Of a DNA stretch of 64,000 nucleotides, positions 11,258 to 43,156 are shown piece by piece. The notes under the pieces are model-generated. The model was not told where the DNA came from and did not search any database. It saw only the letters and a program-made list of their open reading frames with translations. Source of the DNA: Rhodobiaceae bacterium (lineage in GTDB: Bacteria > Pseudomonadota > Alphaproteobacteria > Parvibaculales > Parvibaculaceae); the NCBI GenBank assembly GCA_021404525.1, contig JAAWWE010000006.1:167899-231898 (forward strand). The letters run 5' to 3'. The translations under genes and the position numbers were made by a program. Within the stretch, counting starts at the first letter, position 1, and the number at the start of each line of letters is the position of its first letter.

Positions 11258-12778
11258 TTAGACAGCCTGCAGGCTGCGATAGAGCTCTGTTCCTTCAGAA
11301 GCGAACTGGTTTGACTCTTCCACAGCCTCAGCAATGGCACTCAGGCTTTCATTTACGTCGCTCACCGCCGTCGACACCGACTGCATGTTTGAACTCATTT
11401 CCCGAGTTGATGCCGTTTGCTCTTCGACTGCACCTGCGGCCGTCGTCACACTCGCTTCCACTGCATCAACAGCTTCCTTGATGCCAGACAAGCGACCAAC
11501 AACTTCTTCCGCAATGGTCTGCATGCCGTTGATTTCGCCACTAATGTCATCTGTTGCTTTCGCAACCTGATTAGCGAGAGACTTCACTTCAGAGGCAACC
11601 ACAGCAAAACCTTTACCCGCCTCGCCGGCGCGGGCAGATTCGATCGTCGCGTTCAGTGCCAGCAGATTAATCTGACCAGCAATGTCCTGGATCATCTGAA
11701 CAATATTGCCCATCGCTTCCGCGGCATCCGTGAGTTTTTGCGTCGACTCATCAGCCTTAAGCGCCTCGTCGGTTACGCGTTCAACTTCTGTTTTCGATGT
11801 CATCATGCTCTGGGCGATTTCGCGCGCTGACGCTTCGAATTCCTCAGCAGCAGAGGCAACAGTTTGTACCATATGCGCTGTTTCGCCAGACGCTGCTGCG
11901 GCAGTCGACGATTGGTCATTCGCACGACCCACAGCGCTCATAATTTTCTCAAGATTCTCATCGACCAACACACCGACCCGCTTGGCTTCATTTTGGGCAT
12001 AAATCTGCGCCGTTATGTCCGTCGCATATTTCACAACCTTGAAAGGCTTGCCACTGGGATCAAAAATCGGATTGTAGGACGCCTGAATCCAAATCTCTTT
12101 GCCCCCTTTGGCGAGCCGCTTATATTCTGCCGCTTGAAATTGACCCTTCGCTAACTGATCCCAAAAGTTCTTGTATTCAGGGCTCTTTGCGTAGTCAGGA
12201 TAAACAAACATGCGGTGATGCTTGCCTTGAACTTCTTCAAGCGTGTAGCCAACGGTGCCAAGAAAATTGGAGTTGGCAGTGATGATCGTGCCATCCAGTT
12301 CAAACTCAATCACCGCTTGCGACTTGGAAATCGCCTCAAGCTGACCGGAATAGTCAGCGTTTTTCAAAGTCTGCGCTGTGATATCAGTGGCATATTTTAC
12401 GACTTTGACAACCTTACCGGCTGCATTCAAAACAGGATTGTAGGATGCCTGGATCCAAATCTCCCTGCCCCCTTTAGCAATCCGTTTGAATTCCGCTGCC
12501 TGATATTCGCCGGCAGCCAGCTTCTCCCAAAATTGCTTATAAGCTGCACTTTTTCCGTAGCTAGGCTCTACAAACATACTGTGATGCTTGCCTTGAATTT
12601 CATCCAGGGAATAACCGATGGCACCCAGAAAATTCTCATTAGCCGTGATAATGGTGCCATCAGGCTTAAACTGGATGACAGCTTGCGACTTGTCGAGCGC
12701 ATCGAGCAAAGCATTCTGCCCAGCGCCTCCTAAGGCCAATGAACCGACTTTCCCACGCAACAAAGACAAAACAGACAT
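11258..12778 (-). CDS. Methyl-accepting chemotaxis protein with two PAS domains, no membrane segment
   Basis: A chemoreceptor of about 506 residues. Two PAS domains (about 20-125 and 140-250) are close copies, each ending in [11 protein letters not shown]. They are followed by an MCP signalling domain (about 270-500) with the hairpin-tip region [27 protein letters not shown]. No transmembrane segment is visible, so it is a cytoplasmic receptor; such PAS-MCPs often sense redox or oxygen through haem or flavin. I chose the ATG at 12778 (aagggtggatct before it) rather than the GTG at 12802. Its 3' end abuts a thioesterase remnant. No che operon is adjacent. Confidence 0.9.
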
Positions 12779-13055
12779 AGATCCACCCTTACAAACGGTC
12801 ACCGAACATCTGCATCGGAACCATCTTCAATCTTGAGGACAAATCCGGCCAATCAGATCTGCCCAATCCCACTCATGCGGAAACGACAAAAGCCCTTGCG
12901 CTCCGCCGCCGACCACCGCGACGCGCAGGTTAAATAGAAGGGTCTAAAAAAAGACTAATTCTAGGTAGCCCAAAAAACCTTACTGGCAAGTGCTGGGGAA
13001 CCGAGGCTGGCAATTGTCGGACTTCATGGCAAACAAAGTCTGAACGGAAGCGCCG

Positions 13056-39910: not shown

Positions 39911-40031
39911 TCAGTTTGGGCCTCGCCGGGATGATTTGTTCATAAACTGTAAACCCTGCTGCATTTACCGTCCATCAAGTGCAATGCGTCACAAGTCGGA
40001 AACCGACTGTGGCGGTAAAGGAACGACGGAT

Positions 40032-40697
40032 ATGGGGCTTATCAGCAAACTTGTCGGCAAGCGGGGCAATCCTGCAGAGGCAACCGTACCTTCGGTCTCT
40101 AGCGGTGAAGCCGTCACCCGTGTGATGAAAAGCATGGCGACAGGTGCTCCGGCAAAGGTCGCGAAGGCAGGTGCAGAAATCGCCACCGCACTCAATACTG
40201 TTGAAACCGCGATCCTCGCGATTGATGTGGTTGCTGACCTGTTGGTGGAAGCTGAGCTCCTCACCGCAACGGCCCGGGAAACAGAAAGTGTTGGCCGCAG
40301 GGCACTTATCGCAAACCGCTATATCACGCTCCTGCAAACCATTTCCAATACGGTTGCGCGGGCGGAACATAACGGCATGAATCTACTAGATGGCGAAAGA
40401 AATACCTACGAGATCAAACTTGACTCAGAGGAACGCGCATCAATCGCCCTCCATGTCGCAAACCTGACGACCGACACCGAAGGTCTGGACCTCACATTGC
40501 CACATGAAGAATTTGCCAGTCAGGTTGAAATCGAACGCACCATCGCTGAAATCGATGCCGCGCGACGCACGGCTTCTCGGATCGCAGACCTTTTCGCAGA
40601 CAGTTCCGCTGTCCTTGCAGAACGTCTCGCCCGCCTTGATCAAGACTTTGGACCAGAGGCAGCGACAGCCACGATACCGACAGGTGCCGGGCACTGA
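40032..40697 (+). CDS. Flagellin-like helical protein
   Basis: A 221-residue, largely helical protein. Residues ~95-125 (RYITLLQTISNTVARAEHNGMNLLDGE) resemble the flagellin D0/D1 region just before the conserved NG-x-NLL motif. The stretch after it (YEIKLDSEERASIALHVANLTT) also follows the flagellin pattern, and a C-terminal helix (IERTIAEIDAARRTASRIADLF) resembles the flagellin C-terminal helix. It is about half to two thirds the size of a flagellin, and no flagellar genes are near. The ATG at 40032 has AAGGA nine bases upstream. It precedes Hpt and receiver genes. It may be a flagellin-derived regulator or a surface protein. Confidence 0.7.
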   Translation: MGLISKLVGKRGNPAEATVPSVSSGEAVTRVMKSMATGAPAKVAKAGAEIATALNTVETAILAIDVVADLLVEAELLTATARETESVGRRALIANRYITLLQTISNTVARAEHNGMNLLDGERNTYEIKLDSEERASIALHVANLTTDTEGLDLTLPHEEFASQVEIERTIAEIDAARRTASRIADLFADSSAVLAERLARLDQDFGPEAATATIPTGAGH

Positions 40698-40819
40698 TCT
40701 GCTCGTTTAACGATTGGTCAACCACGTTTGCCGACAGACTTTTAACCTTGACCGACTAACCTTTTTGTATGCCCAACGGAAGATCAGGGGATGCTTTCGG
40801 TTCAGGGTAAGGGTTTAAC

Positions 40820-41347
40820 ATGCAACACAAGCCGGATGTCGCTATACGGTCTCTTTTGGGTGGACCACCTGAAATCGTTCCTGTCCCGTCAATCGCCGAG
40901 ACCAAAGGCCTCGCCACCGACGATGCGCATTTGCGCATGGACCCCCGGATCCTGACACGGATCAACGATGTTGTGTCGGTGCTGCAGCAGGACTACACGA
41001 AAGTTCTGCTAACGCATGTCGCCGATCTAGAACGCGCGTATATTGATTGGAAATCCGGCACCCAGGACACACGGGCCAAAATCTATGACATCGCCCATGA
41101 CATTCGCGGTGTTGCTGGCACGTTTGGGCGTTCGCTGTCAGGTCAGATAGCGACAAGAATATGCGCGCTGTTCGATCAGACACCTCACGCCATTCCCGCA
41201 ATTGATGACCATATCGATGCCCTCAATCAGGTCGCCAATCTATCGCCGGAGCCCGAAGGCGCTTTCGCACAACTGGTATTGAATAGACTGGACGGCGCCG
41301 CCGATCAGCTGCAAATGCCGGCGCCAGACGAAAAAGCAGGAGGGTAA
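40820..41347 (+). CDS. Hpt-domain histidine phosphotransfer protein
   Basis: A 175-residue helical protein. The segment IAHDIRGVAGTFG near residue 93 has the Hpt pattern (His then xx-Arg/Lys-Gly) with a likely phospho-accepting His. The N-terminal ~45 residues look unstructured. It lies 4 bp upstream of the receiver gene, so the two form a phosphorelay pair by context. No histidine kinase is nearby. Confidence 0.75.
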   Translation: MQHKPDVAIRSLLGGPPEIVPVPSIAETKGLATDDAHLRMDPRILTRINDVVSVLQQDYTKVLLTHVADLERAYIDWKSGTQDTRAKIYDIAHDIRGVAGTFGRSLSGQIATRICALFDQTPHAIPAIDDHIDALNQVANLSPEPEGAFAQLVLNRLDGAADQLQMPAPDEKAGG

Positions 41348-41351
41348 CCAG

Positions 41352-41915
41352 ATGACGGAAACAAGCCTCGCACCCCTAAGAATTCTGATCGTCGAAGACA
41401 GCGAACAAATGCGAACGCTGCTTCAAGCGCTTTTGGAAGCCATGAGCATTACCGACATTCTAATCGCAGGAGACGGTGAGCAGGGTTTGGCGCTCTATAT
41501 GGAATCAGCGCCCGACATTGTCATAACAGACGGCGCCATGGTGCCTATGGATGGCTATGAGCTGACGAACCGCATTCGGACGGCACCAGACAACCCGAAC
41601 CCTTACGTCCCCATCCTCATGCTGTCAGGCCACCAGGAGAAGGAACATGTCGAGAAGGCACGGGCAAGTGGTGTGACGGAATACCTGGCAAAACCCGTTT
41701 CCTGGCAAACGCTCTACGAACGCCTGGTGGCCATTGTCAGCAATCCCAGCTTTTTTGTCCGCACACCAACCTATTTGGGTCCCGACCGGCGCAGGGAAAC
41801 CCACGAACTATATCAGGCACCAAGCCAGCATAATGAGGCACAGCCCCCCAAAACCACCGCAGAAATACTGCCATTGGACGCCATTCGCAGGCCGAGCCTC
41901 ATCCGCACAAAATAG
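41352..41915 (+). CDS. CheY-like response regulator with a C-terminal tail
   Basis: A receiver domain (about residues 8-130) with acidic pocket VEDSE, phospho-acceptor Asp in VITDGAMVPMDGYE near 56, Thr/Ser switch region MLSGH, and Lys in YLAKPVS. The remaining ~55 residues (Pro/Arg/Glu-rich) have no output domain. The ATG follows GGAGGGTAACCAG. The single-domain layout suggests a phosphate sink or a protein-protein output, coupled with the Hpt gene just upstream. Confidence 0.9.
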   Translation: MTETSLAPLRILIVEDSEQMRTLLQALLEAMSITDILIAGDGEQGLALYMESAPDIVITDGAMVPMDGYELTNRIRTAPDNPNPYVPILMLSGHQEKEHVEKARASGVTEYLAKPVSWQTLYERLVAIVSNPSFFVRTPTYLGPDRRRETHELYQAPSQHNEAQPPKTTAEILPLDAIRRPSLIRTK

Positions 41916-42022: not shown

Positions 42023-43156
42023 ATGTCTACTGAACAGACCAACATCACAGTTGATAGTGCTTATGAAGCCGTCGCGCCGGATGACTTTCCGGCAATGATG
42101 GAGGTGGAGCGGTACGGCAGTCGCTCGACAGCCTTCGACAAAATCATCTCAGCGACACACGATCATTTCTGGGACCCACAGGACCCGAAATTTGTGGACT
42201 TCAGCCAGCCGTTCGATATGGAGAACGAATACCTGGTTGATCCAATCGGCCTTGCTGAATTGCAAACCGCCATCAATGACAAGATCGATGAGAAGCAGCG
42301 CATCAAACTGGTAAACCTGGATGTGCAATGGTCGCTTTCGTCCATTTTGCATGGCGAGCAAGGCGCCCTAGCTCTCTCAGCGAGCCTCTGTCATATCCTG
42401 AAAGACCCTGGCGCACAGGAATATGCAGCGAACCAGACCCGCGAAGAAGCCCGTCATGTCGCTGGGTTCTCAAATTACATTAAAGCCAGGTGGGGCAAGC
42501 CTGTCGCAGTAGGCCCCGCTCTTGGGGACCTTCTAACAGAACTCGTTCTATCCCCGCTCGTTTGGAAGAAGATTGTTGGCATGCAGATGCTCGTTGAAGG
42601 CCTCGCCATGGGCGCCTTTGCAACCTTCTACAAGCAATCCAATGACCCCGTCATGACCAAGCTGATGCAGCTCACCATGACCGACGAAGCTTTCCACCAT
42701 AAGTTCGGAAAAATCTGGGCGGATCGCACCATCCCCAAACTCTCCGAAGATGAGCGAAACCAGATCGAAGATTGGGCCTGGGAGGTCTTTCAGGTGCTTC
42801 TCTACAATCTGGGTAGCCCGGAGCAAAAGAAGCACATCTACGCCGCTGTCGGTCTGGATTGGGAGTGGGTCCAAAGTGCCTTCATGGAGGCGATGACAGA
42901 CGCTGCGGTTCGCGAAGACATGATGGAAGCGACAAACATCTTCCGTGTTCTTATCAAAACCCTTCTGAAAGCAGGGGTCATCACGGACCGGACCTCCGCC
43001 AATTATGCCGCCTTCATCGATATGAAAGAGCTTCACCAGGAAGGCGACCGGATGATTGGCGACGATATTGCTGAAGAAGGCATCAAATATCTTCGTGAAT
43101 TGAACGGAAACACCAACAAATACATGTCGCTGGACAATATGACGGCGGCCGAATAA
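42023..43156 (+). CDS. Ferritin-like diiron protein, AurF/R2-type motif
   Basis: A 377-residue helical protein with two copies of a carboxylate-histidine diiron motif: an E of HGEQGAL then 28 residues then EEARH, and an E of VEGLAMG then 28 residues then DEAFHH. The EX28-37DEXXH repeat is described for AurF-type N-oxygenases; a similar layout occurs in ribonucleotide reductase R2 and bacterial multicomponent monooxygenases. The protein should bind a di-iron site and activate oxygen. The substrate is unknown. No reductase or ferredoxin gene is adjacent. The ATG at 42023 has GGAGGAG upstream, better than the ORF-track start. Confidence 0.82.
   Translation: MSTEQTNITVDSAYEAVAPDDFPAMMEVERYGSRSTAFDKIISATHDHFWDPQDPKFVDFSQPFDMENEYLVDPIGLAELQTAINDKIDEKQRIKLVNLDVQWSLSSILHGEQGALALSASLCHILKDPGAQEYAANQTREEARHVAGFSNYIKARWGKPVAVGPALGDLLTELVLSPLVWKKIVGMQMLVEGLAMGAFATFYKQSNDPVMTKLMQLTMTDEAFHHKFGKIWADRTIPKLSEDERNQIEDWAWEVFQVLLYNLGSPEQKKHIYAAVGLDWEWVQSAFMEAMTDAAVREDMMEATNIFRVLIKTLLKAGVITDRTSANYAAFIDMKELHQEGDRMIGDDIAEEGIKYLRELNGNTNKYMSLDNMTAAE

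Follow-up and report, generated by a model that had tools for sequence, protein, structure and literature searches.

The window, by which we mean the whole 64,000-nucleotide stretch that was analysed, holds at the locus under study three successive open reading frames, encoding a flagellin-like protein (P0001), a stand-alone Hpt protein (P0002) and a CheY-like receiver (P0003), whose coordinates and internal features are collected in Table 1. A gap of 122 bp separates the P0001 gene from the Hpt gene, and 4 bp lie between the Hpt and receiver genes. The initial annotation had described the three frames, the 4-bp spacing and the NG-x-NLL motif of the first protein, and had remarked that no kinase is present; we agree on each of these points, finding no kinase gene within or adjoining the cluster. 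It missed the Cle c-di-GMP motif of the receiver and the likeness of the Hpt protein to CheA P1. Promoter and terminator scans of the locus were uninformative. A CtrA-box-like sequence upstream of the Hpt gene, which we treat as a lead only, may mark a separate promoter for the Hpt and receiver genes; it is only partly conserved, being present in four of the seven compared loci and missing from the three more distant ones. In the divergent intergenic region between the Nudix and flagellin-like genes (window 39911-40031), a block TTCATAAACTGTAAAC ... TTACCGTCTATC is conserved across the genus and is a possible regulator site. The gene at window 42023-43156, for an AurF-like protein (Pfam AurF under cut-off), is among the best conserved of the flanking genes. 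The only other chemotaxis-like gene that we saw in the window lies on the minus strand at 11258-12802 and, judged from its translation, encodes a PAS-PAS-methyl-accepting chemoreceptor.

Table 1. Genes and features of the locus (window coordinates).
Feature	Position	Strand	Basis
P0001, flagellin-derived D1-only protein, 221 aa	40032..40697	+	ORF; profile homology; AlphaFold/Foldseek; dN/dS 0.04
Helix, residues 40-83, ND1a-like	40149..40280	+	AlphaFold secondary structure, mostly pLDDT >90
Helix, residues 87-110, ND1b-like	40290..40361	+	AlphaFold
NGMNLLDG, residues 114-121, flagellin NG-x-NLL signature	40371..40394	+	Sequence; HHalign onto NG-x-NLL of the genome's own flagellin
Beta-hairpin region, residues 125-141	40404..40454	+	AlphaFold
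Helix, residues 164-206, CD1-like; expected C-terminal D0 absent after it	40521..40649	+	AlphaFold, profile alignments
CtrA-box-like TTAA-N7-TCAA, possible Hpt-receiver promoter (lead only)	40707..40722	+	One mismatch to TTAA-N7-TTAA
P0002, stand-alone Hpt, CheA-P1-like helical bundle, 175 aa	40820..41347	+	Pfam Hpt just under cut-off; model, Foldseek
H93, predicted phospho-accepting histidine, in HDIRGVAGTFG	41096..41098	+	Invariant in 12 homologues
P0003, CheY-like receiver with C-terminal arginine-rich extension, 187 aa	41352..41915	+	Pfam Response_reg 4e-23; alignment
D60, predicted phospho-accepting aspartate	41529..41531	+	Invariant in 12-sequence alignment
R104 in alpha4, apparent counterpart of activation-required Cle arginine	41661..41663	+	Near-invariant in alignment
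YLGPDRR, intact copy of the Cle ARR c-di-GMP motif	41772..41792	+	Sequence; motif definition of PMC5677366

Taken singly, P0001 gives weak scores: 11.7 bits (E = 0.28) against Pfam Flagellin_N, under the cut-off of 26.6, and 19 bits against the NCBIfam flagellin model, while single-sequence searches returned weak flagellin matches together with chance matches to the diphtheria toxin repressor. The flagellin question therefore needed family profiles, and we built one from 28 sequences of the P0001 family, nine of which match the Pfam flagellin model at E < 0.01 (best 7e-4). This profile detects flagellins throughout the class. All three that the window's own genome encodes are among them (best 1.4e-12), and an HHalign alignment of the family profile with a profile of the genome's own flagellins had an E-value of 5.8e-17 and a probability of 99%. 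Against the PDB, the family profile retrieves Caulobacter FljM, FljN and FljK at 1e-6 to 1e-5. The AlphaFold model of P0001, with 126 residues at pLDDT ≥90, has flagellin D1 topology, and Foldseek matches it best to flagellar filaments, those of Caulobacter and Leptospira among them (probability 1.00). A profile search and a structure prediction had been proposed as checks of the initial annotation's suggestion of flagellin ancestry; the single sequence stays under the Pfam cut-off, the family profile is unambiguous for flagellin, and the model is a flagellin D1 core. We conclude that P0001 is a true relative of the flagellins, reduced to the D1 core. Since the family scores under the Pfam cut-off, annotation pipelines likely miss it, and we found no description of the family, or of a Cle-Hpt-flagellin locus, in the open-access literature.

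The match of the family to flagellins stops at about residue 198 of 273 in FljK and at residue 334 of 375 in one of the genome's own flagellins, and neither the profile alignments nor the AlphaFold model contains a counterpart of the flagellin C-terminal D0. The N-terminal 23 residues of P0001 appear disordered (pLDDT <50) and are unlike flagellin D0, and we saw no secretion signal by eye. Flagellin requires D0 to polymerise and its N-terminus to be exported. Because P0001 is without the C-terminal D0 and has a non-flagellin N-terminus, its export and its polymerisation into a filament are unlikely, as far as sequence and model allow one to judge. The D1 fold by itself would suit two proposals of the initial annotation, a minor component of the filament and a surface sensor; both are very improbable in the light of these missing parts and of the occurrence of the gene in two genomes without detectable flagellar markers, the export gate protein FlhA included. 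The N-terminus of P0001 is conserved and basic, of the form MG(L/I)xS(K/R)L; its hydrophobic moment is variable and is no proof of membrane binding. We also considered a phosphorylated histidine in P0001 and rejected it, H113 not being conserved.

Matches to P0001 at E ≤0.001 occur in 36 of the 40 genomes of the order, one of them (G010) weak, and the full-length relatives in the order show mostly 38-91% identity, with one at 23%. The most divergent member (G010, L040:7741-8391) has lost the NG-x-NLL motif and lies in a locus in which the order receiver, Hpt, receiver is intact. Members are found in at least five alphaproteobacterial families, namely Parvibaculaceae (f1), f103, f3, f76 and f4. 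In a phylogenetic tree, the P0001 family forms one group opposite the flagellins and FlgL (support 100/100, to be read with a warning about long branches). We rejected an origin from FlgL (HAP3): the family profile misses alphaproteobacterial FlgL in the fetched loci, and FlgL groups with the flagellins in the tree, whose root is unsure owing to long branches. P0001 is shorter than a flagellin, as a decaying pseudogene might be; however, the family forms one old clade, the reading frame is open in every genome inspected and dN/dS within the genus is 0.04-0.05 (0.039-0.045 between P0001 and three congeners), so that decay is hardly credible. The P0001 family is under strong purifying selection, with dN/dS of about 0.04.

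P0002 reaches 23.0 bits (E = 9e-5) against Pfam Hpt, short of the cut-off of 24.6, and nine of 12 Hpt homologues match the same model at E < 0.01 (best 1e-7). The best Foldseek match of the P0002 model is CheA P1 (probability 1.00, E = 8e-3). We consider that the predicted fold and the invariant histidine outweigh the shortfall of 1.6 bits, and that P0002 is an ordinary orphan Hpt. The Pfam score of P0003 makes its assignment as a receiver certain; the phosphorylation residues are retained and the C-terminal end reads RTPTYLGPDRRR. The sequence [YF]xGP[DE][RK]R is central to the arginine-rich region through which the Cle proteins bind c-di-GMP, and occurs there as a tandem pair (Nesper et al., PMC5677366), and these proteins need an arginine in alpha4 for activation (PMC5677366). 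P0003 contains one intact copy of the motif and a degenerate second one (LYQAPSQ); receivers at the same position in several relatives carry two tandem copies. The correspondence of R104 with CleD R113 is judged by the spacing of the residues and not by aligning the two proteins. Judged by its sequence, P0003 is likely a c-di-GMP effector.

We laid out the synteny of the locus in 35 Parvibaculaceae and three f103 genomes. In Parvibaculaceae an Hpt gene adjoins the flagellin-like gene in all 35 genomes and a receiver gene in 34, and in the three f103 genomes both adjoin it, always on the same strand. The receiver and Hpt genes of relatives frequently overlap by a few bases. In the Parvibaculum-type order the genes follow one another on one strand as flagellin-like, methyltransferase, receiver, Hpt and receiver; in the window's genus the order is flagellin-like, Hpt, receiver, with no methyltransferase. 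The first receiver, which precedes Hpt, seems to have been lost in the window's genus, because P0003 is closer in sequence to the Parvibaculum receiver that follows Hpt (49% identity) than to the one that precedes it (40%). The methyltransferase (L043:10639-11520, with counterparts at that position and on that strand in other Parvibaculum-type loci) is of the class I SAM type (Methyltransf_25, E = 1e-19), and in the genus g5 it is found upstream of the flagellin-like gene. At L039:8258-9595 (G005) the receiver is missing, and the retained flagellin-like and Hpt genes are followed by a minus-strand hydrolase gene; in G007 the end of the contig cuts the receiver.

Outside these two families the genes scatter independently: in the f3, f4 and f76 genomes neither an Hpt nor a receiver gene adjoins the flagellin-like gene, and pairs of a Cle-motif receiver and an Hpt are common in other Alphaproteobacteria where there is no flagellin-like gene. 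The initial annotation had named independent scattering as an outcome that would refute it, and this outcome holds outside Parvibaculaceae and f103; the core role of the P0001 family cannot rest on Hpt and receiver alone, since f3, f4 and f76 keep the gene without them. Most loci are flanked by Nudix, amidase and AurF-like genes, the last with 71-98% identity across f1, f103 and f3. As these neighbours also stay in place, co-location alone is no proof of joint function.

The three flagellins and FlbT of the window's genome are encoded on another contig (C67), and its main FlhA and FliG on a further one (C58), in accord with the earlier remark that P0001 is far from any flagellar gene; the remark does not extend to the relative G012, in which FlhA lies about 32 kb from the flagellin-like gene. 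The window's genome (G000) also has a second, more distant FlhA-family protein (C30:2370-4352) and a second FliG-like match (C19:20095-20433), and a genome without flagellin or FliG has a lone FlhA-family protein (G002:C3:1500919-1502898). These extra matches may belong to a second export apparatus of flagellar or injectisome type, or to contamination, which amounts to 5.39% in G000. In two f3 genomes, G041 and G157, nothing matched Flagellin_N, FlhA or FlbT, no FliG match passed the cut-off, and searches for a close Cle receiver found none; in both, the flagellin-like gene has the Nudix and AurF-like genes on either side, and Hpt and receiver are missing from the locus. Both are drafts, 97% and 91% complete respectively, in which absence is weaker than in closed genomes. 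The third f3 genome, G238 (8% contamination), is flagellate by its flagellin, FlhA, FlbT and FliG markers. In this small sample of three genomes from one genus, the Cle receivers track the flagellum and the D1 protein does not. Relatives without a detectable flagellum keep the P0001-family gene, which appears to have another job.

These observations bear on two alternatives. The main rival holds that P0001 is a domesticated D1 bundle with a role of its own, apart from the flagellum and from the Hpt and receiver, with which it would merely share a slowly changing neighbourhood. G041 and G157 agree with this, as does the equal conservation of the Nudix, amidase and AurF-like neighbours; yet the same-strand array with receiver and Hpt is kept across Parvibaculaceae genera and f103, and the two drafts could hold a gene left over from a flagellum that was lost recently, and we regard such an independent role as possible and somewhat doubtful. 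The other alternative is by analogy: P0001 would act as a flagellin mimic, tuning the supply of flagellin by binding to flagellin-handling factors (FlaF, FlbT or a chaperone), as HP1076 of H. pylori competes with flagellin for FliS. HP1076 shows a comparable reduction of the fold, being D1-like, non-polymerising and membrane-associated (PMC7248283), and the window's genome does have flagellins and FlbT. The persistence of the gene in G041 and G157, where neither FlbT nor flagellin was detected, argues against such a mimic, and we think it improbable.

We favour, at a probability of roughly 40%, the reading in which P0001, as a D1 bundle that does not polymerise, serves to dock partners in signalling at a c-di-GMP and phosphorelay locus. 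The Hpt would carry phosphoryl groups supplied by a kinase whose gene lies elsewhere. The receiver would integrate phosphorylation and c-di-GMP binding, and in this way adjust the behaviour of the motor or a switch between swimming and sticking. As the least certain step, the flagellin-derived D1 protein, cytoplasmic and unable to polymerise, would have become an adaptor that docks the Hpt or the receiver, perhaps at the membrane by way of its basic N-terminus. What we computed in favour of this reading comprises the flagellin homology, the D1 fold lacking a C-terminal D0, the single-strand synteny with Hpt and receiver, the invariant histidine and aspartate, the Cle motif and the likeness to CheA P1, to which we add the wide recurrence of Cle-motif receiver and Hpt pairs in Alphaproteobacteria; phosphotransfer, c-di-GMP binding and any docking we infer. 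Against it we count the f3, f4 and f76 loci without Hpt or receiver, the conserved Nudix, amidase and AurF-like neighbours, the 122-bp gap before Hpt and the single intact motif copy in P0003. The initial annotation's idea of a flagellin-derived regulator gains partial support from the ancestry of P0001 and from its lasting association with Hpt and receiver; that it works in a phosphorelay is a possibility. We advance only tentatively, and with doubt, the history in which, early in the evolution of the Alphaproteobacteria, the domain for polymerisation was lost from a flagellin, which became a cytoplasmic signalling adaptor, working with Hpt and Cle-type receivers where these are present and outlasting the flagellum. 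Filament proteins are usually viewed as the final output of the flagellar pathway; if our reading is true, one of them has been recruited into signalling, and the D1 bundle is reusable inside the cell, as a non-polymerising core that persists where the flagellum has apparently been lost. The locus also offers specific genes with which to study the wiring of Cle-type receivers and of orphan Hpt proteins.

Each of the three proteins can be set beside known ones. P0003 resembles CleA-E of Caulobacter in its CheY-like receiver, its C-terminal [YF]xGP[DE][RK]R region and its alpha4 arginine (PMC5677366); it differs in that a single copy of the tandem motif is intact, its c-di-GMP binding being a prediction, and in keeping its phosphorylation residues beside an adjoining Hpt gene, whereas activation of the Cle proteins is reported to be phosphorylation-independent (PMC5677366). 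P0002 is, like HmrX of Caulobacter, an orphan Hpt of CheA-P1 type, a likeness that does not come from sequence comparison; HmrX is linked to the switch between motile and sessile states (PMC11481889), and the P0002 gene differs in adjoining a Cle-type receiver gene and a flagellin-like gene. We considered FssA and FssB of Caulobacter as counterparts and rejected them, both being secreted and devoid of the domains of this locus. With bacterial flagellins (FliC/FljK type; PF00669/PF00700) P0001 has in common the D1 helices, the beta-hairpin and NG-x-NLL, and its closest PDB structures are the Caulobacter FljK, FljM, FljL and FljN filaments. It differs from them in being without the C-terminal D0 and the flagellin N-terminus, in lying outside a flagellar operon and in scoring under the Pfam cut-off, and its family occurs in two genomes with no detectable flagella; by the parts that define flagellin function, P0001 is not a flagellin. 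HP1076 entries are found neither among the PDB hits of the family profile at E ≤10 nor among the 50 Foldseek matches listed. HP1076 binds FliS and, in the passages of PMC7248283 consulted, is not described in association with a receiver or Hpt; like P0001, it is a small, non-filament protein of D1 fold with an unsettled role, and it is the nearest precedent for P0001.
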